This document shows positions 1,641-34,680 of a stretch of DNA of 37,505 bases, piece after piece. Below the pieces are notes generated by a model. That model made no database searches and was not told where the DNA came from. It was given only the letters and a program-made list of their open reading frames with translations. The stretch is from Acidobacteriota bacterium (GTDB lineage: Bacteria; Acidobacteriota; Vicinamibacteria; Vicinamibacterales; UBA8438): assembly GCA_021296485.1 (NCBI GenBank), contig JAGWAI010000002.1:16743-54247 (forward strand), given 5' to 3'. The translations under genes were made by a program, and so were the position numbers. Within the stretch, counting starts at the first letter, position 1. The number at the start of each line of letters is the position of its first letter.

Positions 1641-2408
1641 TCACCACGGAAATATCTCACGCAGCCGGCGCGCCCGACGGCGCGAAAGCGGCACCGCACC
1701 CGCCCCGGGACACACGATCGTGTAAGTGCCCGCATCGGCCGTCCGAATTTCGGAGATCCGCCCGAGGTTGACGAGACAGCTCCGGTGCGCCCGAAAGAAC
1801 CGGCCTTCGAGCTGCCGCTCCAGCTCGGACAGGGTTTGGTCGACCGTGAACCGCCCGGCCGCGGTCCGCGCGAAGACCAGTGCGTCTTCCGCCTCGAACC
1901 AGATGATTTCGTCCGGGTCGAGCAGGAGGATCCCCGAGCCGCTGCGGGCGCTGACGCGGTAGGGGAGGGGCACTGCCGCCGCGGGACCCTCGCCGACCAG
2001 CCGCCGCAGCGCATCGAGCTCGTCGAGGATCCTCCGCGCCGAGCCGGCGCCGTCAATCTGCTCCCGAGCCCGTTCGAGAGCCTGGGCGAAGCGCTCCCTG
2101 CCGACGGGCTTCAGCAGATAGTCGATCGATCGCACTTCGAACGCGGGAACCGCGTAGCGGTCGTACGCCGTGACGAATATGACGTGCGGCACGTGCCTGA
2201 CCCGCTGCAGGACATCGAATCCGGTGCCCTCCGGCATCTGTACATCGAGAAAGCACAGGTCTGGCCCGGTCTCGTCGATCAGCCGCACCGCCGCCTTTGC
2301 ATCGGCCGCCTCACCGGCGAGCTCGAAGTCGGGATGTGCGTCGAGCAACCGCTTCATCCGGTCGCGGGCCGGCTTTTCGTCGTCGATGACGACGCAGCGC
2401 CGCCTCAT
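1641..2408 (-). CDS. LytTR-family response regulator
   Basis: The 255-residue protein has an N-terminal receiver domain (about 1-120). It carries the acidic pair in VIDDEKPAR, the phosphoacceptor Asp55 in LCFLDVQMPEG, Thr80 and the conserved Lys100 in DYLLKPVGR. After a linker, residues about 150-252 form a LytTR DNA-binding domain, with the FFRAHRSCLVNL signature and a following ISEI strand. This is the AlgR/LytR/YehT architecture: phosphorylation by a LytS-type kinase drives binding to direct repeats in promoters. Its ATG overlaps the stop of the kinase gene by 4 bp (2405-2408), so the two are translationally coupled and almost certainly a cognate pair. The target promoters are unknown. The bactofilin-like gene just downstream is one candidate, but I could not recognise a LytTR repeat in the 122-bp gap. 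Confidence 0.92.
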   Translation of the reverse strand: MRRRCVVIDDEKPARDRMKRLLDAHPDFELAGEAADAKAAVRLIDETGPDLCFLDVQMPEGTGFDVLQRVRHVPHVIFVTAYDRYAVPAFEVRSIDYLLKPVGRERFAQALERAREQIDGAGSARRILDELDALRRLVGEGPAAAVPLPYRVSARSGSGILLLDPDEIIWFEAEDALVFARTAAGRFTVDQTLSELERQLEGRFFRAHRSCLVNLGRISEIRTADAGTYTIVCPGAGAVPLSRRRARRLREIFPW

Positions 2409-3511
2409 GGAGCGCTCACCTCGGACCGGGGGAGCGCGGGAACGACCGGCAGGGTGAGTCGCGCGCTCGCGCCCACGCGGTCCGGCCCGGCGCCAAGCGT
2501 GAGAGCCGCGCGTGTTCCGTAGGACGCGTGGAGCCGGCGGGCGATGTTGCCCAACCCGTGGCCGTCGCGGATCAGGCCCCCTTCATCGCCGGAGAGCCCG
2601 ACTCCGTCGTCGACCACATCTATGCGTAGCACCTCGCCGTCGACGCGCGTCGAGACGTCGATGCGTCCTCCGCGCGCCCGCGGAGCGAGGCCGTGTCCCA
2701 CCGCGTTTTCGACCAGCGGTTGGAGTACCAAGCCGGGAATCCGGACCGCCAGCGAGTCCGGATCGACGTCCCAGGCGACCCGTAGCCGGTCGCCGAACCG
2801 GACGTGTTCGATACGCAGATAACCCTTGGTGAAGGCGATCTCGTCGCGCAGCGGAACGGGCGCGGCGTCGGCCGCGTCGAACGCGTAGCGGAACAGATCC
2901 GCGAATGTCTCCAGCAATTCCTCCGCCGTGCGGGCGTCTTCGTCGAGCACCGAGCTGATGGTGTTGAGGGTGTTGAAGAAGAAATGCGGGTTGATCCGCG
3001 CCTGTAGCGCGGCCAGCTCGGCGCGCGCCGCCTCCTCGCGCAGTCGTGCCTCGACCAGTCGGACCTCCCGCATCTCGCGCAGGGCGTCCTGCAACCGCAG
3101 CCGCATCTCCTCGTAACCGAGCACGACGCCCCCGACCACCAGCGCTAGGACGCTGTTGAGAGCGATGACCCCCACCGCGAGCCGCGGCTCGCGAAAAACG
3201 AACAGCGGGTAGGCGGCGAGCACGGCGAGGCTGCCCAGGACCGCACCCGACAGCAGTGCAAGGACGAGCAGCGGGAAACGCAGCAGTCCCGAGCGTCCCC
3301 GCAGGCGCGGAAACAGCCAGACGGAGCAGACCATCGCGGTGAGGCCCACCACGTTGGCGAACAGCACGGAGATCACAAGGATCGGGCGCTCTACGCCTTC
3401 GCCCTGGAATACGCTCACGCCGAATCCGACGGCGAGCCCGGCGAGACTGCTGGCCGCGATCCAGAGTCCGGCGTGGCGGCCGAAGCTGACGGCCGTTCGG
3501 GATCGGTTCAC
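2405..3511 (-). CDS. LytS/YehU-type sensor histidine kinase
   Basis: With the GTG at 3511 the product is 368 residues. Residues about 12-135 contain four hydrophobic segments, followed by a coiled-coil-like stretch (about 135-170). The phosphotransfer motif is ARINPHFFFNTLN, with His176 the probable phosphorylation site. This is the His_kinase (LytS/YehU) type rather than a HisKA dimerisation domain. The ATPase domain (about 265-360) has LQPLVENAVGHG and DDGVGLSG as nucleotide-binding boxes, then HGLGNIARRL. The GTG overlaps the TGA of the phosphatase gene by 4 bp, and the stop overlaps the start of the response regulator by 4 bp. The upstream extension of the frame is antisense-like Arg-rich sequence and overlaps the phosphatase, so it was rejected. 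The membrane region resembles that of the neighbouring phosphatase. Confidence 0.9.
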   Translation of the reverse strand: MNRSRTAVSFGRHAGLWIAASSLAGLAVGFGVSVFQGEGVERPILVISVLFANVVGLTAMVCSVWLFPRLRGRSGLLRFPLLVLALLSGAVLGSLAVLAAYPLFVFREPRLAVGVIALNSVLALVVGGVVLGYEEMRLRLQDALREMREVRLVEARLREEAARAELAALQARINPHFFFNTLNTISSVLDEDARTAEELLETFADLFRYAFDAADAAPVPLRDEIAFTKGYLRIEHVRFGDRLRVAWDVDPDSLAVRIPGLVLQPLVENAVGHGLAPRARGGRIDVSTRVDGEVLRIDVVDDGVGLSGDEGGLIRDGHGLGNIARRLHASYGTRAALTLGAGPDRVGASARLTLPVVPALPRSEVSAP

Positions 3512-4722
3512 CGCGCCCTCGCCAGGACAAGGGTTACGTCGTCGTGGGGATCCACCGGGCCGCTCCACTGCACCAGAGCGTCGAGCACGACCTCGATGAT
3601 CTTGTCGAGCGGGCGTCCGCGATGGGCGCGCAGCAGCTCGGCGAGCCGCGTCGCTCCGAATTCCTCTCCGTCGGGCGCCGGCGCCTCGGTAACGCCGTCG
3701 GTGAACAGCGCCAACAGGTCTCCGGGCGCCAGCGTCCGGGCGCCCGTCTCGTAGGCGGCGCCCTCGAACATGCCGATGGGAAAGCCGCCTTCTTCGCAAC
3801 GCGCCGTATTTTCCTCATGTACGAGGATCGCCGGCAGGTGCCCCGCGTTGGTATACGACAGGCGGCGCGTCTCCCGATCGAACGTCGCCAGGAACAGGGT
3901 GGCGTAGCGCGACGCTGATGACGATCCGCACAGCGCCTCGTTCATATCCGCAACGAGCAATCCCGGAGTCGCCGCGGTGGGGAAGCGGCTACGCATCGAG
4001 GCCTGCAGGTGGGCCATGAGAAGCGACGCGGAAACCCCCTTGCCGGACACGTCGGCGATAACCACGCCCAGCCGGCCGTCACCGTCCCGCAGGTAGTCGT
4101 AGTAGTCCCCGCCTACCGCAATGGCCGGCCGGCAAACCCCCGCCAGCTCCAACCCCGCAACGGGGGGCGCCTCGCGCGGCAGTAGCTCGCGCTGGACCTC
4201 ACGGGCCACGCTCAACTCGCGCTCGAGCGCATCCCGCTCCCGGAGAACCCGGTACGACGCTTCGATCTGGCGGCGCATGCGGTCATAGGTGCCCAGCGCG
4301 ATTGCGACCCCCGCCGCGAGCACCGCGTTGAACACCACCATGAGCAGGGCGGCCCGAGGCTGCGCAAGCACGAAGAACGGATCGATCAGGAACACGAGAA
4401 TCGAACCGAAGATCGTGCCCGCCAGCACGATCAACGCGTCGAGCAGCAGGCGCAGCGCGCCCGGCAGTCGCGCCAGCAGCGGGAACACGAGCCGCGCGGA
4501 GATGTACGCGCTGTAGCCGACGGCCACCGCAAACGGCACGCTCAGCCGCAGGACGGGCCCGAAGTCGACACCGGCCCCGAACGCGGCCCCGGCCCCGAAC
4601 ACAACGCCGGCCCCGAGCCACGCGCCGGTCCAACGCACCAGGAAGTGCCAGTCCGGAGCGGCCACCAGCGCGGTCGGGCGGTGTGAGCCCGTGGCCTGCG
4701 TCGTTGCGGAAGACGGAGTCAT
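3508..4722 (-). CDS. Membrane-anchored SpoIIE-type PP2C serine/threonine phosphatase
   Basis: The product is 404 residues if the ATG at 4722 is used; an in-frame TTG at 4767 would add 15 residues. Residues about 28-145 hold four membrane segments. A coiled coil leads from about 148 to 180, ending in VAREVQRELLP, the usual entry to SpoIIE/RsbU phosphatases. The catalytic domain (about 185-404) shows GGDYYDY (Asp206), VIADVSGKG (Asp224), LFTDGVTEA and HDDVTLVL, so the metal-binding aspartates are in place. Such enzymes usually dephosphorylate STAS-domain anti-anti-sigma factors, but no STAS or anti-sigma gene is visible nearby, so the substrate is unknown. The gene sits upstream of the kinase with a 4-bp GTGA overlap. 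No clear Shine-Dalgarno precedes either start candidate. Confidence 0.88.
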   Translation of the reverse strand: MTPSSATTQATGSHRPTALVAAPDWHFLVRWTGAWLGAGVVFGAGAAFGAGVDFGPVLRLSVPFAVAVGYSAYISARLVFPLLARLPGALRLLLDALIVLAGTIFGSILVFLIDPFFVLAQPRAALLMVVFNAVLAAGVAIALGTYDRMRRQIEASYRVLRERDALERELSVAREVQRELLPREAPPVAGLELAGVCRPAIAVGGDYYDYLRDGDGRLGVVIADVSGKGVSASLLMAHLQASMRSRFPTAATPGLLVADMNEALCGSSSASRYATLFLATFDRETRRLSYTNAGHLPAILVHEENTARCEEGGFPIGMFEGAAYETGARTLAPGDLLALFTDGVTEAPAPDGEEFGATRLAELLRAHRGRPLDKIIEVVLDALVQWSGPVDPHDDVTLVLARAR

Positions 4723-16999: not shown

Positions 17000-17311
17000 C
17001 TACCGCACGGCAACCCGGCGGCGCTTCTCCCAACGGGTCTTCAGGGTATGCGCCTGCTGCTGCACCTTCTCGACGGCCCCGCCGATAGCCTGGGCCCACT
17101 GCCCGCCTTCATCCTCGCCATGCAGCATGTGGTCGCCCCGCACATGCACGGTCATCTCCGCACGGCAGCGGTGGCGCTCCTGCGACAGCACTACCTGCGC
17201 CGACAAGGCATTTTCCTGCAGAAGCCGCTCGAGCTTCGCGAGCTTCTGCGTGAGGATCAAACGAATGGCAGGTGTGATTTCGACGTGGCGGCTGGTAACG
17301 GTACTCGTCAT
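17000..17311 (-). CDS. hpf: Ribosome hibernation-promoting factor, short form
   Basis: The 103-residue product is a short HPF/YfiA protein: an N-terminal VTSRHVEITPAIRLILTQKLAKLERLL strand-helix unit (residues about 5-31) and HRCRAEMTVHVRGDHMLHGED in the middle. There is no C-terminal dimerisation domain, so this is the short form that needs RMF-like help or acts as a stabiliser of idle ribosomes. Its ATG overlaps the rpoN stop by 4 bp (17308-17311), and rapZ follows after 17 bp. This is the conserved rpoN-hpf gene order. Confidence 0.92.
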   Translation of the reverse strand: MTSTVTSRHVEITPAIRLILTQKLAKLERLLQENALSAQVVLSQERHRCRAEMTVHVRGDHMLHGEDEGGQWAQAIGGAVEKVQQQAHTLKTRWEKRRRVAVR

Positions 17312-18777
17312 GATCGCTTGGCCTCGGCCCAGTACAACATCTTGCGCTGGCTCGATGTGGAAATCTTCAGGTCCTCCCGGTACTTGGCAATCGTCCGCCG
17401 GGCGAGCATGAGCCCCTCCTCCTGCAGGAGCGCGACGATGCGCGAGTCGCTGAGCGGCTTGCGCACGTCCTCGGCCTCGATCATCTTCCGGATGCGCTGC
17501 TTGATGGTGACCGACGAAACGCTCTCCCCGTACGAGCTGTGTATGCCGCTGTGGAAGAAATACTTCATCTCGTACACGCCCTGCGGCGTGTACATGTATT
17601 TGTTGTTGACTACCCGGCTAACGGTCGACTCGTGCATGCCGATGCTACCGGCGACGTCGCGCAGCACCAGCGGGCGCAGGTGCTCTATCCCGTGCTCCAG
17701 AAAGGCGCGCTGGAACTGAATGATGCTCGTCGCCACCTTGTGGATGGTCTTCTGGCGCTGGTCGATCGACTTGAGGAGCCAGAGCGCCGAGCGGAACTTC
17801 TCCTTCACGTAGGAACGGGTCTCGGCCGAATTCTGGTTGTTCTTCTCGAGCAGGCGGCGGTAAACCGGGCTGATCCGCAATTGCGGCAGACCCTCCTCGT
17901 TGAGGGTTGCAACGTACTCGCCGTCGACCTCGATGACGTACACGTCGGGCGTGACGTATTGCGACGGCGACGGGTTGTAGCGTGTGCCCGGCTTTGGATC
18001 CAACCGTCTGATGATCTCGATGTGCGGCTTGAGATCGGAAACAGACATCTGCAGCTGACGCGCCAGCTCCGGGATCTGGTTGGTCTGCAGGAGGTGGAGA
18101 TGCCGCCGCACTATGACTTCGCTCGGCGTCCCCTCCAGGCCGTGGTGGCCCAGCTGGAGCAGCAGGCATTCCTGCAGATCGCGGGCGGCGACGCCGACCG
18201 GATCGAACGCCTGGACGAGCAGCAGCATCCGCTCGACTTCGGCGGTCGGCCAGTTTCCCATCGCGCCGATTTCCTCGACCGAGGCGACAAGATAGCCGTC
18301 CTCGTCAAGATTACCGATGATGGCCACCCCGATCTCCCGCAGCAGCTCGTCATCCGTACGGGCTGACAGCTGCCACATCAGGTGGTCGGCAATCGAGTTC
18401 GAGTCTTCGGGCGAGGATGTCGACAGGGTGTTCTCGATCGGCGGCAGTTCCTTCACCTCCCGCGGCGTGCGCGGACGGTAGCCGTCGTCGAGATAGTCGC
18501 CGAAGAAGTACTCGTAGTCGGCGTCGTCCCAGGCGTCCTGCTTCTCGGCCGCCTGGTCGGAATCCTGATCCGCCTTCTCCGTCTGGGCCTGGGCGTCCGA
18601 CGGCTGCAGCTCCTCCGCGGGCACTTCCTCCAGGAGCGGGTTCTCAACGACCTCCTGGTTGAGCATGTCCATCAATTCCACCGTCGTCATCGGCAGCAGC
18701 TTGATCGCCTGCTGCAACGACGGCGTAAGGATCAGCCGCTGGGAAAGCCGTGTCTGGAGCTTCTGCTGGATGGCCAT
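17308..18777 (-). CDS. rpoN: RNA polymerase sigma-54 factor
   Basis: The 489-residue protein starts with the Gln/Leu-rich activator-binding region I (LQTRLSQRLILTPSLQQAIKLL, trimmed here to its pattern). An acidic region II follows (about 55-90, many Asp/Glu). Next come the core-binding domain and the DNA-binding domain, with IGMHESTVSRVVNNKYMYTP as the helix-turn-helix. The RpoN box ARRTIAKYRE is at residues 459-468. Sigma-54 needs AAA+ enhancer-binding proteins to open promoters; none is encoded in this window. The gene begins 33 bp after lptB and is coupled to hpf by a 4-bp overlap. Confidence 0.96.
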   Translation of the reverse strand: MAIQQKLQTRLSQRLILTPSLQQAIKLLPMTTVELMDMLNQEVVENPLLEEVPAEELQPSDAQAQTEKADQDSDQAAEKQDAWDDADYEYFFGDYLDDGYRPRTPREVKELPPIENTLSTSSPEDSNSIADHLMWQLSARTDDELLREIGVAIIGNLDEDGYLVASVEEIGAMGNWPTAEVERMLLLVQAFDPVGVAARDLQECLLLQLGHHGLEGTPSEVIVRRHLHLLQTNQIPELARQLQMSVSDLKPHIEIIRRLDPKPGTRYNPSPSQYVTPDVYVIEVDGEYVATLNEEGLPQLRISPVYRRLLEKNNQNSAETRSYVKEKFRSALWLLKSIDQRQKTIHKVATSIIQFQRAFLEHGIEHLRPLVLRDVAGSIGMHESTVSRVVNNKYMYTPQGVYEMKYFFHSGIHSSYGESVSSVTIKQRIRKMIEAEDVRKPLSDSRIVALLQEEGLMLARRTIAKYREDLKISTSSQRKMLYWAEAKRS

Positions 18778-19536: not shown

Positions 19537-21654
19537 TCAATTGAGGAGCTGCGCGGGACAGGCGACGCTTGCCGTAGCCGTGCGGACCTGGGATTGTCCG
19601 TCAACGGAAACGTCATTGGCCGTGGTGAAGAACGTGAGCGTGCGTCCCAGCGTCTCGCGACAACCCTCGTCGACCTGTTCGACGAACGTGGCCGGCCGGC
19701 CTTCTATCTCGTAGCGGCCGCCCGCGTCATGGTAGACGAGCCTGTCGCCCGACACGACGCGGCCGGGTATGAGCAGCGTGACGCTGCCGCTGGCCGTTAC
19801 ACGGTCGAGGGTCAAGTCATCCGGTTGCAGCTGCACTCGAATGTGGTCTGCCTGCAAGTCGCCCTGCGGTCCGTCGAGATGGGCGGCGCCGGCAAAGGTC
19901 ACCCGGTGCAGCTCCTGCTCGTAGCGCATCGCTTCCGCGCTGCCCGTTGCAAGCGAAGTCTCGACCTCCTCCGTTTCCTGGTTCAGCCGGCTCATCGAGA
20001 AACGGGTCTGCACGGCGCCGTCGATCAAGAGATTGCCGGTCGCTTCGTCGAGTACGAGCGTCTCGCCGCGAAAGGTCGTATCACCCTGCCACAAGTGCGC
20101 GCCGCCCGCGTACATGACGAGTTGCTCCGCGCCGTCATAAACCAACTGCGACGCCGTGACCAGCAGCGGCTCGACTGCGTCGACCAGACCGGGATACTCG
20201 GCGCCGGCGTCCTCGCCCGCAGCGCCGCCCAGCACGCTCTCGACCCCGCCCTGCGCGCCGATCTGCGGACCGCTGAATCCGATGCGAAGGGTCTCCGCAC
20301 GGACCGATCCGCGTTCGTAGACAACGCGCGGCGCCTGGCCCTCCTCCTCCGCCGCGACGAGCTCCACCGCGTTGTCGGCGATCAGATAGTGCGCTGCGTC
20401 CCCCTGTCCCACGATGCCGCCGTCCTCGAAGGTAACGCCGCCCCTGAATGTCGCGGCTTCAAGCGACGACAACCCACCGGCCAGCGTTGCTTCAAGCTCC
20501 TCGGCGCGGGCGACGCGCGACGCGCCGTCCGCGGCACCCCGCTCGCGGTACTCGACGCCGCCGGTGAAACGGGCCTCCTCCGGCCCGTCGCCCGACAGCC
20601 CGTCCACCTCGAGCGCATCCGCCTCGATACGCTGTTCCGCTGACGATTCCGCCGCCGGCAGTTGCAGCGCCACGTCGTCGCGAGCAGTCAGGCCGCCGAT
20701 GCCGTCGCCATCCGCGACAAACCCGATCTCCATCGACGCCGCGCCGATCTCCGAGCCGCGATCCGGGACGCTGCCCGCCAGCGCCAACCGGGCTCCGCCG
20801 GTCAGGGTGGCCTGCTCTATTGCCCCACCCTCTTCGCTGTACGCCAGCTCGATATCCGCCGCCGCCATGGTGCGCAGTTGCCCCGCCCCCGACTCGCTCC
20901 CGGCGATCTGCACACCGTCACCCAGCGCGAGAGCCTTGATCCGCGAGCTGTCAGGGATGAGATCCGCATGCGCGCGAGCCGCCTCCATCAGCAGGCCGCC
21001 CGCGTCGATCGATACCCCGCCCTCGAATGCCATGTAACCATCCGCCTGTGCGACCGTGGCGGAATCGGAGCCGATGGTGGTAGTCGTCTCGCCGGCGCCG
21101 GCCAGCGTTACGGCAGCCCGGCTGTGCAACTGCAGGAGGTCGGCGCTGCGATCGTACACGGACCGCGCGGCCGACGCTTCCATGTCGCCGCGCACGAACG
21201 TCGCCGCGCCCGGCATGCGGACAACCCCTTCGGATTCGGTGTACTGCGCGGATTCCGTGCTCGCCTCCAGGTCACCCCCGGCAACCAGCCGCACGTCGCC
21301 GCTCAGCGACAGCTCCGTCTTGCCGGCGTCGACCGTGGCGGTCCGGCTGCGCAGGACGAAGCCGTCGCGGTCATCCCGCGCCTCGACTGTCACCTCCACG
21401 CCGTCAGTCATGCGCAGTCCGCCGCCCGCATAGGTCATCTGCTGGGCGGCGACCACGCGGATATTGTCACCGAACGCATCGGCCTGGACGACGTCGCTGC
21501 CGCGGGTCTGGATGATGGCGTCGGGATCGGTGCGCTGCACCACCACGGCCTGGACCGGCTCGGCGCGCTGTCGCAGATTGAGAAAAACGGCCGCACTGAC
21601 GCCCACGACGACCAGCGCCAGCCCAATCCGCAGCGGATGCCTCCAGAATGCCAT
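19537..21654 (-). CDS. Fused LptC-LptA-type periplasmic LPS transport protein
   Basis: The 705-residue product has an N-terminal membrane anchor (about 8-26), as in LptC. Repeating short beta-strand units then run through the rest of the protein. An LptC-like part (about 30-190) contains DNIRVVAAQQMTYAGGGL and LSLSGDVRLVAGG. Further OstA/LptA-like repeats follow, such as ATFRGGVTFEDGG, then THLWQGDTTFRGETLVLDE-type sequence near residues 520-540 and ASGSVTLLIPGRVVSGDRL near the end. Separate LptC and LptA are about 190 residues each, so this single chain is much longer than both together. It probably forms most or all of the bridge from the LptB-driven permease towards LptD. Two cysteines lie near the C-terminus. 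It starts 19 bp after recJ. Confidence 0.82.
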   Translation of the reverse strand: MAFWRHPLRIGLALVVVGVSAAVFLNLRQRAEPVQAVVVQRTDPDAIIQTRGSDVVQADAFGDNIRVVAAQQMTYAGGGLRMTDGVEVTVEARDDRDGFVLRSRTATVDAGKTELSLSGDVRLVAGGDLEASTESAQYTESEGVVRMPGAATFVRGDMEASAARSVYDRSADLLQLHSRAAVTLAGAGETTTTIGSDSATVAQADGYMAFEGGVSIDAGGLLMEAARAHADLIPDSSRIKALALGDGVQIAGSESGAGQLRTMAAADIELAYSEEGGAIEQATLTGGARLALAGSVPDRGSEIGAASMEIGFVADGDGIGGLTARDDVALQLPAAESSAEQRIEADALEVDGLSGDGPEEARFTGGVEYRERGAADGASRVARAEELEATLAGGLSSLEAATFRGGVTFEDGGIVGQGDAAHYLIADNAVELVAAEEEGQAPRVVYERGSVRAETLRIGFSGPQIGAQGGVESVLGGAAGEDAGAEYPGLVDAVEPLLVTASQLVYDGAEQLVMYAGGAHLWQGDTTFRGETLVLDEATGNLLIDGAVQTRFSMSRLNQETEEVETSLATGSAEAMRYEQELHRVTFAGAAHLDGPQGDLQADHIRVQLQPDDLTLDRVTASGSVTLLIPGRVVSGDRLVYHDAGGRYEIEGRPATFVEQVDEGCRETLGRTLTFFTTANDVSVDGQSQVRTATASVACPAQLLN

Positions 21655-29463: not shown

Positions 29464-29493
29464 ATTATAGCGGGGTGAGCACCCTGTTGTGAC
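29464..29493 (-). promoter_or_regulatory. Probable promoter of the guaA-dnaE run
   Basis: A perfect TATAAT is read on the minus strand at 29464-29469. At 18 bp spacing, GTCACA (29488-29493) matches the -35 consensus at four of six positions. Transcription would start near 29457, about 50 nt before the guaA GTG. The -35 region overlaps the start of the divergent gene at 29489. The TATAAT lies in a 9-bp palindrome, so a plus-strand TATTAT is also present. Confidence 0.5.
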
Positions 29494-30739
29494 CACAATA
29501 TTTAGTGGTGGTACCGGCCGGATACGCATGATATGCGCCCTCTGGCTGCTGGCGGCGCTTCTCTGGCCGACACCGATTCGGGCCGAGCGGCGCCCCGCGG
29601 GAATAGTCGAACCGGCGCCCGCTCCCTTCTTCCCCCTGCAGGTCGGCTGGACTGCCGAGTTGGGGGCGCCGCCCGCGACGCGGCCGGGGTACGACTCGGC
29701 GCACGCCTATGTGCCGCTCCGCGACGGCACGTTGTCTGCCGTGCGCCTGCGCGACGGCGAAGTCACCTGGAACATCGATCAGGCGTCTACGTTTCCTCCC
29801 GCTACCGGCGGCGGCACCGTGGTCGTGGCGGACGGCGCCAATCTCGTTGCGCTCGAGGGGGCGACTGGCGCGCAGCTCTGGTCCCGGGATCTCCCGTCGC
29901 AGGTATCGGCGCCGCTCCTGCGCGGCGCGGGTTGGTTGATTGCACCGCTCGAGGGTGGCCAGCTGCTGGCGCTCGAATCCACCGACGGCCGCGAGATTTG
30001 GCGGCGTCCGCTTGGTGGTCCCTTGCGCACGCAGCCCGCGTTCGGCGGCAACCGCCTGTTCGTCCCCATCGACGACGGCCGGCTGGCTGCGCTTGACGTG
30101 ACCACCGGCGCGCTCCTGTGGGAACAGCCGCTCAGCGGCAACCCGCGGGAGGTATTGCCGCTCGACGCCGTGTTCGTCGGCACGACCGGCAATTACCTGT
30201 ACCGGATATCGCCCGCCAACGGCCGCATCGAATGGCGCTGGCGTACCGGCGGCGACGTTATCGGTGCGCCGATCGTCGACGAGGAACGCGTCTACTTTGC
30301 ATCGCTGGACAACATGGTATGGGCGCTCGACCGCGACAGCGGCGTGCAGCGCTGGCGGGAAGTGCTGCCGCGGCGCCCGCGCGCGGTACCCGGTCTGGTC
30401 GGCGAGCTGCTGCTGGTATCCGGCGTCTCCGAGCAGCTCCCGTCGTTCAAGCGCGAATCCGGTGAGCCGGGGAATGCCATCGCCGCCCCCGGCGAGCTGG
30501 GGGCACCGCCCTACGTGGCCCCGTCGCTGGCCGCGGCCGGCTTGCGGATGGTGTTTCTGGTGGCTGACGGCCGGTTGGTCGGCATGCGGCGGCCGGCGCC
30601 GCCGCCCGCCTGGTCGCTCGTCGAGCCGCTGCCGCCGCTGCAACCAGCGACGTACGGCATCCTGCCGTCCACGCCAATCGCACTCGAACCGGTCACCCTG
30701 GCGCCGGTATTGACGCCGGCGGGCATCGCGCTGCAATGA
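29489..30739 (+). CDS. Secreted PQQ-type beta-propeller protein (BamB-like)
   Basis: The 416-residue product has a signal peptide (about 1-31, [20 protein letters not shown] then Ala). Repeated propeller blades follow, each with a Gly-x-x-x-Trp core: [48 protein letters not shown] and [10 protein letters not shown]. This is the PQQ_2/BamB fold. In BamB it is a scaffold without bound cofactor, and quinone-binding residues cannot be judged here, so an enzyme role is not claimed. There is no lipobox, unlike BamB. The start is GTG 29489; ATG 29528 would leave a signal peptide without a basic n-region. The last four bases overlap the kinase start (ATGA), implying joint function with that membrane sensor. 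Confidence 0.82.
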
Positions 30740-33700
30740 GCGGTAACGGCTACTGGCGGCAACTTGCGGCGGCCGGTCTCATCATCGCCGGCGCCGGCGC
30801 GATTCAGCTCGCCGGCGGGCTGGTGGAGCTTGCGCGCCTGGGCGTAACCGATGATGCAGCATTTGCGGGCATCGAGCGCCAGGCAACACAACGCTTCGAG
30901 ACCATGGCGGCGGCGCTCGAAACGCTTGCCGTAAGGCTGGCCGCGCGGCCCGCCGTCATGGCCGGGTTGCGAGGTGAGCCCAACTCGGCGGCGGCGCTCT
31001 TCGACGCCGTGCGCGCGGCGCCCGAGGGCAGCGCCGGCGCCGACGCGGCGATAACGGTCTACGACGACATGGGCGCCGCGCGCGCCTGGACGGGACGTCC
31101 ATCGGAGATCGCCCTCGAGCGCATCCTGGGCGGCCAGACGTTTTTCGTTGCGCCGGGGTCGCTCGGTCTGCGTCTCGTCTACATCGAGCCGCTCCACGAC
31201 GCGTTCTCTGACAGCAGCCCGCCACCGCGCATCGGATCGATTGCCGCAGAGTTCGTACTCTCGCCGGCGCTCGGCGTAACCGCGACGCCCGCGGGGCCGT
31301 TCAACCTGCGGTCGACCATAGCCGACGTTTCGGTGCGGGCGACAGGCGCCGCCGGGGACCGCAGCACGCGGCAGCCGGACGGCGCGCTCCGTTTCGATCT
31401 TCTGTCCCCACGGGGCGGTCCGCTCCTGGAGGCGTCCGTTGCGGTCGCGGACCTGCGCATGACGCGCATCCGCTGGCGGCGCGCGGTCACGAATCTGACG
31501 CTGCTGTTCGTGGCGCTCGCAATCATCGCGGCGGTACTCATCGCGCTCCGCCGGCTGCCGCGCGGCGGCCCGCCGCTGAACCTTGTCGGCCGCGCCGCGC
31601 TTGCCGTTGTCGGCCTTGGGGGCGCCGGCCTTCTGCTGCGGGCGTCAAACGCACCGGAAGCGGGCCGCGGCAGGTTGTTCGCACCGGATGTGTACAGCTC
31701 CCGCCTGCTGCCGGACCTCCTGCGTTCTCCCGCCGATCTCCTGGTCTACGGCGTGCTCGCCGCGGCACTGGCGCTCGTCGCCGCCGCCCTGTTGCAACAC
31801 ATCCGTCCCGCGGCGCGGCGGCTGCGGCGCACGCCTTCCCGCCGCGGGCTCGTGCCGTTTCTGCTGACGCATGCGGTTGGCGGGCTCGTGCTCGCCGTGC
31901 TCACGATCGGCTTGCACGCGATGACCCGTGACGCCGCCTTCAACTCGACCGTCGATCTCCTCCATACGTCGCTGGCACCCTGGGATGCGGGACGCATCGC
32001 TCTGCTCTGCGGCCTGATCCTGGCGGCCGTCGGCGCGGTATGGAGCGGCGCCGTCGTGCTGGCGACCACGCGCGCCCTATGGCGCTATCCACGCCGCCGG
32101 CTGTTGCCGCTGCTGGGGACCATCGCAGCGTGGGGCGCCCCCGGCGCGGCCGGCATGGTCTGGCTGGGACAACCGCTGCTGCCCGGCCTCATCCTGCCGG
32201 TTGGAACGATACTGGCCGCCTTGGCGATGCCGGCCGTCCGGCCGCGGTTTCGCCACACGTCCCAGGCCGCGCGCGTGCTCGTGATGTTGCTGGCGGTCGC
32301 CGCACCGGCGCTGCTGCTGTACCCGTTGCTGGCGCACCATGCGGACCGTGCCAAGCGACAGCTCGTCGAGACACGCTACGCCCGCCAGGCGGCGCGCCAC
32401 CCCGCCGATCTGCAGGGGTTTCTGAACCGCTCCCTGGGTCAGATCGACGAACTGGCCGAGCTGCAGGCGGTGATGTCGGCACCCGTCCGACGGCCGGGCG
32501 CCGATCAGGCTTTCTCCATCTGGCGCCAAACGGAACTGGCGCAGTTGCGGCTGACATCGGCCATCGAGCTGTACGACGCCGGGGGCGGCCTGATCAGCCG
32601 CTTCGCACTGAATTTTCCGGAGTACGCGGATGTGCCGCAACGCTGGGTATCCAGCGGCTGCGAATGGGAGATCTTCGGCGAGGCGGCGCCCTTCGGATCG
32701 GAGGAACGCCGCATCCTGCACGGCGAGCGCGCCATCTGCATCCCCGCCCCGAGCGGCGGCGCACCTGTCGTTCAAGGTTCGGTCGTCGTGCATCTGGCCC
32801 TCGACTACCAGGCGCTGCCGTTCATCTCACCCCAGAATCCATACGTCGAGCTGCTCCGCGAACGACCCGACGCCGGCGCGGAGCGCCGCGACGTGGAGCT
32901 GGTCATCTACGGCTGGGGACTGCAGCCGATATTCACGTCGGGCTCCAGCCCGTGGACCGTGGACGACGATCTGTTCGCGCGCATCTATGCCTCCCGGGAG
33001 CCGTTCTGGACCACCCGCGCCAAGGGCGGCCGGCGCTACGACCTGTACGTGGTCAACAACCGCGCCGGCATCTACGCGCTCGGCTACCCCGCGTTCGGGC
33101 TCTTCGACCACCTGGTCCGGCTGGTCGAAATCACGGCCCTGGTCGGGTTGGGCTGGCTCGCGCTGCTGCTGCTTGCGGTATGCGCGACGCCATGGACGAC
33201 CGGCTGGACCGGATTCGGCCGCGACCTGTTCCGCGAGGTGCGCACCAGCTTCTATCGCCGCCTGTTCCTGGCCTTCGTCGCCGCTACCGTGATCCCGGTG
33301 CTGGCGCTCGCACTCGTGATCCGCATCTACCTCTCCGCCCAGCTGCGCGCGGACGTCGAGACCGGCGCCGCCCGCACGGCTGCCGTGGCGCAACGGGTTA
33401 TCGAGGAGTCGTTCGGTCTGCAGCAGACGGGTGAGGAGCCGGCCGCCATCATCAACGACGACCTGCTGGTGTTCATCAGCCAGGTGATTGATCAGGACGT
33501 CAACATATTCGAGGGCTCGCAACTGCTGGCCACCAGCGAGCGCGACCTGTTCGCCTCGGGCCTGTTGCCTACGCGGACGCCGGCCGGCCTCTATGACGCC
33601 ATCGTGCTGCAGCGTGTCTCCGGCTACGTGGCGGAGGATGTAATCGGCGACCTGCAGTACCTGGTCGCGGCGACGCCGATCCGGGCCGGCGGCCGCGACG

Positions 33701-34680
33701 CCATCCTGACCGTACCGCTTACCTCCCGGCAGCAGGAAATAGAAGATCAGATCGCCAATCTCGATCGCGCCATCCTGATCGGCGTGGCCCTGTTCGTCCT
33801 GCTCGGCGCGGCAAGCGGCTACTACCTCGCGGAACGCATTGCCGACCCCGTCAAGCGCCTTACGCGCGCCACGAAGCGGATAGCGCGCGGCGAATTCGAC
33901 GCCCAGGTGGCCGTCAGGTCCGCAGACGAGCTGCAGCGACTCGTGGCGGCGTTCAACCGGATGGCGCTTGACCTCAAGGACCAGCAGCAGCGGCTGGAGC
34001 GGACGCACCGCATCGAGGCGTGGGGCGAAATGGCCCGCCAGGTGGCGCACGAAATCAAGAACCCGCTGACGCCCGTGCAACTTTCCGCAGAGCATCTGCT
34101 GCGGGTCAACCGCGACCGCGGCGAGCCGCTCGGACCGGTGCTGCAAACCTGCGTCGATTCGATACTGGCGCAGGTGCGCATACTCCGGCAGATCGCGTCC
34201 GAGTTCTCCAGCTACGCCTCCTCCCCCACGGTGAATCAGGAGGAAACCGACCTCGGCGCGCTCGTGCAGGATGTGCTGGCGCCCTATCTGCCGGGCCTGG
34301 AAGGCCGTATCACCGTGGCGAGCGACCTCGAGACCGGTCTGCCGCCTGTCTCCGTCGATCGCACGTTGGTCGCGCGTGCGCTCACCAACGTCATCGACAA
34401 CGCGCTGCATGCGATGCCCGGCCAGGGGTCGCTCGAGGTGCGCGCGGCGCCGCAGGATGCCGCCGTATCCCTGGTGGTCCGCGACACCGGCGTCGGCATC
34501 GACGAGGCGACCCTGCAGCGGATCTTCGAGCCCTACTTCTCCACCAAGGTATCCGGCACTGGGCTGGGCATGGCAATCGCCAAACGAAACGTAGAGCTGA
34601 GCGGCGGACGGATCGCCGTAGAGAGCCGGCTGCACACCGGCACGGTGGTAACCATCGCCTTTCCGGCCCTGCCGGGCTAG
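30736..34680 (+). CDS. Very large multi-membrane NtrY-like sensor histidine kinase
   Basis: The 1314-residue protein starts with a helix (about 7-29) and a first extracytoplasmic segment (about 30-245). A block of about seven membrane helices follows (about 250-535), then a second extracytoplasmic domain (about 542-795), a helix (798-818), another helix (842-864) and a third sensor segment (about 866-1010). After a further helix come a HAMP domain (about 1031-1083), a HisKA domain with phosphoacceptor His1105 in RQVAHEIKNPLTPVQLS, and an ATPase domain with NVIDNALHAM, VRDTGVGID and GTGLGMAIAKRN. The HisKA box is of the NtrB/NtrY type. There is no PAS or receiver domain, and no response regulator gene lies beside it. 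It is coupled to the propeller gene by a 4-bp overlap. Confidence 0.9.
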   Translation: MSGNGYWRQLAAAGLIIAGAGAIQLAGGLVELARLGVTDDAAFAGIERQATQRFETMAAALETLAVRLAARPAVMAGLRGEPNSAAALFDAVRAAPEGSAGADAAITVYDDMGAARAWTGRPSEIALERILGGQTFFVAPGSLGLRLVYIEPLHDAFSDSSPPPRIGSIAAEFVLSPALGVTATPAGPFNLRSTIADVSVRATGAAGDRSTRQPDGALRFDLLSPRGGPLLEASVAVADLRMTRIRWRRAVTNLTLLFVALAIIAAVLIALRRLPRGGPPLNLVGRAALAVVGLGGAGLLLRASNAPEAGRGRLFAPDVYSSRLLPDLLRSPADLLVYGVLAAALALVAAALLQHIRPAARRLRRTPSRRGLVPFLLTHAVGGLVLAVLTIGLHAMTRDAAFNSTVDLLHTSLAPWDAGRIALLCGLILAAVGAVWSGAVVLATTRALWRYPRRRLLPLLGTIAAWGAPGAAGMVWLGQPLLPGLILPVGTILAALAMPAVRPRFRHTSQAARVLVMLLAVAAPALLLYPLLAHHADRAKRQLVETRYARQAARHPADLQGFLNRSLGQIDELAELQAVMSAPVRRPGADQAFSIWRQTELAQLRLTSAIELYDAGGGLISRFALNFPEYADVPQRWVSSGCEWEIFGEAAPFGSEERRILHGERAICIPAPSGGAPVVQGSVVVHLALDYQALPFISPQNPYVELLRERPDAGAERRDVELVIYGWGLQPIFTSGSSPWTVDDDLFARIYASREPFWTTRAKGGRRYDLYVVNNRAGIYALGYPAFGLFDHLVRLVEITALVGLGWLALLLLAVCATPWTTGWTGFGRDLFREVRTSFYRRLFLAFVAATVIPVLALALVIRIYLSAQLRADVETGAARTAAVAQRVIEESFGLQQTGEEPAAIINDDLLVFISQVIDQDVNIFEGSQLLATSERDLFASGLLPTRTPAGLYDAIVLQRVSGYVAEDVIGDLQYLVAATPIRAGGRDAILTVPLTSRQQEIEDQIANLDRAILIGVALFVLLGAASGYYLAERIADPVKRLTRATKRIARGEFDAQVAVRSADELQRLVAAFNRMALDLKDQQQRLERTHRIEAWGEMARQVAHEIKNPLTPVQLSAEHLLRVNRDRGEPLGPVLQTCVDSILAQVRILRQIASEFSSYASSPTVNQEETDLGALVQDVLAPYLPGLEGRITVASDLETGLPPVSVDRTLVARALTNVIDNALHAMPGQGSLEVRAAPQDAAVSLVVRDTGVGIDEATLQRIFEPYFSTKVSGTGLGMAIAKRNVELSGGRIAVESRLHTGTVVTIAFPALPG

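Follow-up and report, generated by a model that had tools for sequence, protein, structure and literature searches.

Among described two-component systems, those closest to the one considered here are NtrY/NtrX, CbrA/CbrB, WalK/WalR and the 7TMR-DISM kinases. The last (RetS, LadS) carry a periplasmic domain and a block of membrane helices ahead of the kinase. CbrB is an NtrC-type regulator and WalR, the partner of WalK, an OmpR-type one. Pairing specificity is set by residues around the kinase phospho-acceptor and on the receiver, and Cache domains, when they serve as sensors, commonly bind small solutes. NtrYX of Rhodobacter sphaeroides governs envelope genes (PMC7240162), and CbrA is a transporter-kinase with CbrB as its two-component partner (PMC7096432).

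The giant orphan kinase analysed below is probably the sensor in an NtrYX-like two-component pair; its partner would be a specific orphan regulator, and the two genes would have drifted apart. Literature searches, some judged from titles and abstracts, gave no description of such a kinase family. The window (the whole stretch of DNA analysed, 37,505 nucleotides) comes from an Acidobacteriota assembly, G000 (88% complete, 2.38 Mb), whose nearest named relative is the Vicinamibacteria MAG L034, at 78% identity. Two genes on the forward strand, encoding a secreted 416-aa propeller (29489..30739) and a 1314-aa sensor histidine kinase (30736..34680; ORF, Pfam, AF2 and hydropathy), lie exactly where an earlier, sequence-only reading had placed them, and the propeller stop and kinase start share the 4-bp overlap ATGA (30736..30739). 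Chance is excluded for both ORFs, because their orthologues are real and both show coding bias; the observation of a propeller beside a giant orphan kinase is thus real and confirmed.

Pfam assigns to the kinase a HAMP domain (residues 1031-1081, 33826..33978), a HisKA/DHp domain (residues 1096-1161, 34021..34218; phospho-acceptor H1105 in HEIKNPLTP, also from alignments) and a HATPase_c domain (residues 1208-1311, 34357..34668), all on the plus strand like the features that follow. Pfam and core trees place this core in the NtrB/NtrY class, as had been proposed for the HisKA box. Residues 1-1030 have no significant Pfam match, Pfam detects neither PAS nor receiver in the protein, as already noted from the letters, and NtrY_N (PF19312), present in an NtrY-like paired paralogue, is absent from the giant kinase. 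Hydropathy and the positive-inside rule predict 12 helices in the order 1+8+2+1, an order that the AF2 model reproduces. The total agrees with the eleven or twelve expected at the outset, but the central block, thought to have seven helices, has eight (TM2-TM9, about residues 245-537, 31468..32346; AF2 and positive-inside rule), the number being even because the block connects two periplasmic segments. Its inside loops bear 3-6 K/R and no acids, a positive-inside pattern, and with a mean conservation of 0.47 it is the least conserved region of the kinase.

Three extracytoplasmic segments precede the HAMP-HisKA-HATPase core, as first read. Sensor 1 (residues 37-244, 30844..31467) has a Cache-like predicted fold (AF2, alignments) and an AWxG motif (A117 W118 G120) kept across phyla; sensor 2 (residues 538-796, 32347..33123) has a double-Cache-like predicted fold and sensor 3 (residues 866-1008, 33331..33759), the most conserved of the three in the alignment, a single Cache-like one (both AF2 and Foldseek). 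The AF2 model, which covers residues 1-1094 (pLDDT 76, pTM 0.68), consists of three periplasmic modules with mixed alpha/beta sheets and a long helix before each. Its best Foldseek matches include the Cache-type sensors WalK, DctB, PctD, TlpA and Mlp24, WalK 9a5d being the best PDB match (E 5e-7), and also, with low probability, phytochrome PAS/GAF structures; sensor 2 modelled alone retrieved mostly double-Cache domains (E about 1e-4, low TM-scores). No Pfam Cache domain matches the periplasmic segments, and the assignment depends on models with pLDDT 74-76 and low TM-scores. The modelled folds are called Cache-like here, short of proven Cache. In sensor 2, C642 and C668 are invariant in alignments of Vicinamibacteria only; the pair was ruled out as a general redox sensor, not being found outside this class.

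Orthologues of the kinase, full-length or truncated at contig edges, occur in 39 of the 40 sampled genomes of the order (Vicinamibacteria, Acidobacteriota), the exception being G011. The same architecture also occurs in several phyla: kinases with this helix plan come from Thermoanaerobaculia, Gemmatimonadota, Krumholzibacteriota, Eisenbacteria and Rhodothermales, and profile comparison indicates homology of the N-terminal 790 residues between Vicinamibacteria and Gemmatimonadota kinases (98.2%, E 2.8e-14). HAMP-HisKA spacing is ~100 residues longer in kinases of Thermoanaerobaculia and some Gemmatimonadota, and in the L040 kinase the insert between the two domains is a weak PAS_8 at the detection edge. 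Neighbourhoods vary: directly upstream of the kinase, Thermoanaerobaculia and Rhodothermales have a DUF4783 gene; Gemmatimonadota have a divergent TolC-HlyD-ABC-type efflux operon beside it, and Eisenbacteria, by eye, SecD/SecF-like ORFs nearby. One locus, L108, is titled Candidatus Kuenenia stuttgartiensis; the kinase tree and the efflux-operon context place it with Gemmatimonadota, and the record is probably mislabelled or a mixed bin. Collectively, the kinase family is conserved and ancient, and it probably belongs to a system like NtrYX in which the input module is new and the genes are separated. A deeply conserved family, with an input module outside Pfam models, is hereby defined in two soil phyla that are abundant and have been little studied, Acidobacteriota and Gemmatimonadota.

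The gene overlap had suggested a dedicated periplasmic sensor complex, in which the propeller would act as a ligand or quality-sensing subunit of the kinase. The propeller is a secreted, BamB-like protein (Pfam PQQ_2/BamB, 2.8e-38; 118 bits against TIGR03300, the NCBIfam BamB model, below the cut-off of 285) with, by eye, a signal peptide, no lipobox and no Cys at the signal end; its relatives carry a C-terminal SPOR domain. In G009 (L137:7512-7793), the SPOR-like part appears by eye as a separate short downstream ORF. The two genes are adjacent, sometimes with the 4-bp overlap, in some families, the window's among them, and Cache-like sensors can have periplasmic partners, as in LuxP-LuxQ, which is among the Foldseek matches. 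This adjacency was found only in Vicinamibacteria, and no propeller adjoins the kinase in Thermoanaerobaculia or Gemmatimonadota loci; loss of the propeller beside the kinase in relatives, named at the outset as counter-evidence, is thus seen outside the class. Even within the class, opposite-strand aminotransferase and membrane-protein genes separate propeller from kinase in L133, L136 and L138, and a similar gap of 2.4-2.6 kb is found in G025, G026, G027, G028, G030, G038 and G039. Finally, G011 has the gene order guaA-propeller-pssA, with the kinase cleanly missing, no Ns at the site and the propeller kept with its SPOR domain, which indicates that the propeller does not depend on the kinase. 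A dedicated complex is therefore improbable. Judged from gene order, the propeller is a conserved neighbour, apparently coupled to it translationally in the family of the window; it is not an obligate subunit of the kinase.

With the propeller set aside, the partner has to be sought among response regulators. None lies beside the kinase within the flanks examined, in agreement with the sequence-only reading. The only receiver in the window belongs to a LytTR-type regulator (1641-2408), which has its own adjacent LytS-type kinase (His_kinase PF06580; pair at 1641-3799, minus strand, Pfam). In G000, each of the seven receivers above the cut-off has a kinase next to it, and only the giant kinase is left without a partner. 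Three other candidates were rejected or set aside: a receiver at G000:C36, with 24 bits, below the cut-off; a receiver-less sigma-54 activator at G000:C75, whose glutamate synthase/PII/ammonium-transporter-like neighbours (by eye) point to nitrogen control; and the C59-type NtrC, since all genomes checked encode a kinase of its own. At the C59 locus (L205:2164-7000) an NtrC-type regulator is paired with a second large kinase, an ORF of about 1100 aa, and such pairs stand at matching positions in 7/7 genomes checked.

Four better assemblies (G001, G005, G006, G008) carry an NtrC-type regulator without a nearby kinase. In L199 this protein has 456 aa, with a receiver, a sigma-54 AAA+ domain and a Fis-type HTH; its orthologue from the window's genus (G001:C68:127524-128885) is 70% identical. 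Pfam and alignment confirm the domain set of a sigma-54-dependent response regulator, with the phospho-acceptor Asp in 35/35 sequences and the G[AS]FTGA sigma-54 loop in 34/35. Against NCBIfam NtrX it scores 440.8 bits (cut-off 600), and the AtoC and NtrC models score alike. Orthologues (>=64% identity, against <=52% for paralogues, a clear gap) occur in 30 of the 40 order genomes, all 30 of which also carry the kinase. In kinase-bearing genomes of other classes and phyla the regulator is the clear top match, full-length and 51-60% identical, in 13 of 16; it is a frameshifted 60% piece in G043, and no clear orthologue was found in G046 and G053. Co-occurrence of an orphan NtrX-like regulator across genomes, which had been suggested as a check, is seen in most of those sampled. 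Against the pairing, nine kinase-bearing order genomes, the window's own assembly among them, have no detected regulator: five assemblies lack the syntenic neighbour, the contigs of three stop short of the regulator position, and the ninth is G003. In G011, the single case of joint absence seen, the order metG-tatD-prenyl synthase-ligA-SDR is intact and the regulator is missing, with no Ns at the site. An RNase P RNA-like sequence (by eye) stands there instead, after ligA and ahead of the next gene of this genome (L299:12276-12845).

A regulator just outside the kinase in relatives, which had been named as evidence against an orphan kinase, exists only in part, in some Gemmatimonadota and at a distance of 4-22 kb. 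In L041, L051, L056, L072, L092, L094 and L102, an NtrC-type regulator follows the kinase at a distance of 4-10 kb on its downstream side; all seven are of the candidate type by identity, and six are in the tree. Two more lie ~11 and ~22 kb downstream. Since regulators are nearby in nine loci with varying intervening genes, linkage in this phylum is probably ancestral. In G047 the two genes are ~690 kb apart. Sampled regulator flanks contain no kinase except three that are distant or separately paired (L221, L269, L272). The candidate regulators of the order, of other phyla and of the Gemmatimonadota loci form one clade (35 sequences, UFBoot 100), sister to NtrX-like regulators, with UFBoot 100 for the joint node. 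In the surroundings fetched for the order, these NtrX-like regulators adjoin NtrY-like kinases with HAMP-HisKA-HATPase cores; the one scanned in full, L227, has NtrY_N, HAMP, PAS, HisKA and HATPase. In FastTree no paralogues stand closer to the giant core than such NtrY-like kinases, and the giants are monophyletic at 0.92. In IQ-TREE, with trees likewise built on the 230-aa core, monophyly is weakly supported: it has UFBoot 64 without L039, a long-branch Cytophagales fragment, and is lost with it.

Alternatively, the kinase may have no private regulator, and either cross-talk to NtrX-like or other paired regulators or act mainly as a phosphatase. Such behaviour would fit the relatedness of the giant core to NtrY-like cores and an assembly in which every above-cut-off receiver is already paired. 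The predicted interfaces argue otherwise. Around the phospho-acceptor, giant kinases have M, Q and V ahead of the His, then H and, for the most part, V/A at +15 and +19, whereas NtrY-like kinases have V/A, R and L/I, then R and K/H, so that the two classes differ almost completely (M vs V/A, Q vs R, H vs R). Receiver positions 20, 24 and 91 also differ between giant-type and NtrX-like regulators (Y vs D, E vs R), and in the alignment the class-wise shifts fall on helix 1 of both the kinase and the receiver. Together with the absence of both kinase and orphan regulator from G011, these differences make cross-talk or a mainly phosphatase role a doubtful explanation. A distant sigma-54 activator, already suspected in the sequence-only reading, is instead supported as partner, in the form of this specific NtrX/NtrC-like clade, because the trees, the joint loss, the gene neighbourhood of another phylum and shifts at specificity positions concur. 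By these comparative criteria the kinase-regulator pairing appears well supported. Paralogy, shared absence and conserved neighbourhood thus offer this orphan kinase a testable partner where adjacency fails.

In the proposed two-component system, periplasmic signals would be received at the three Cache-like domains arranged around the 8-helix membrane core, and the final transmembrane helix and HAMP would relay them to the HisKA/HATPase core. The kinase would then phosphorylate or dephosphorylate the orphan regulator, which would switch on sigma-54 promoters. RpoN, required by such an output, is encoded in the window as first reported (17308..18777, minus strand; Pfam Sigma54_AID/CBD/DBD). Next to the rpoN gene and one for an LptB-like ABC protein lies a 705-aa ORF (19537-21654, minus strand) whose N-terminus is LptC-like (13-183) and whose C-terminus is LptA-like (492-621), a possible LptC-LptA fusion judging by these similarities. 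A search for sigma-54 motifs upstream of the propeller, kinase, htrA, regulator and neighbour genes gave nothing above background, and no regulon is claimed for these candidate targets.

As to the signal, the gene immediately preceding the regulator in G025, G026, G030, G036 and G038 encodes an HtrA-type protease (among these neighbours, L221 was scanned with Pfam), and in G033 an HtrA-type gene begins after ligA at the contig end. Given the HtrA, BamB/SPOR-like and efflux-operon neighbours and the precedent of Rhodobacter NtrYX, the system probably serves the envelope, whose state it may monitor; this is a weaker claim than the pairing. If it is true, the kinase would belong to a major envelope-sensing pathway of Acidobacteriota and Gemmatimonadota, linked with HtrA and sigma-54. 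A nutrient or transport sensor of the CbrA type would use the same regulator for another signal, its 8-helix core being transporter-like. The size of the membrane core, the CbrA/CbrB precedent and the solute-binding habit of Cache domains would suit such a transceptor, but Pfam finds no transporter match in the kinase, and core helices that are the least conserved part of the protein would be unusual for a transporter; we consider this unlikely. Slightly less so, and still tentative, is the idea that residues 1-790 (sensor 1, 8-helix core and sensor 2) make up an ancient input module, undescribed so far and common to at least five phyla, whose core itself senses or transports something (a lipid, a lipid-linked precursor or a solute), which the three Cache-like domains would integrate into one sigma-54 output monitoring envelope assembly.

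Compared with known systems, the neighbouring propeller resembles BamB in its PQQ_2/BamB match and differs by its sub-threshold TIGR03300 score, the lack of a lipobox and the SPOR domain of its relatives. WalK, the best structural match, has an extracytoplasmic Cache-TM-HAMP-kinase arrangement, which the Cache-like predicted folds here would share, but two membrane helices only. Like RetS and LadS, the giant kinase has a periplasmic domain and a helix block before the kinase; unlike them, it has no Pfam 7TMR-DISM match, and its block of eight helices is followed by two more periplasmic domains. CbrA is likewise large and polytopic, whereas the giant kinase has no SSF/SLC5 or STAC Pfam match and has Cache-like periplasmic domains instead. 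The differences from NtrY/NtrX are an extra N-terminal TM-sensor-8TM-sensor module of ~790 residues, the frequent lack of PAS (here none between HAMP and HisKA) and a regulator gene that does not adjoin the kinase, being 4-22 kb apart in some Gemmatimonadota. The likeness to NtrY/NtrX lies in both partners: the HAMP-HisKA-HATPase core and the last-sensor/TM/HAMP region are homologous to those of NtrY-like kinases (hhalign 98.7%), and the candidate regulator is sister to the NtrX-like regulators.
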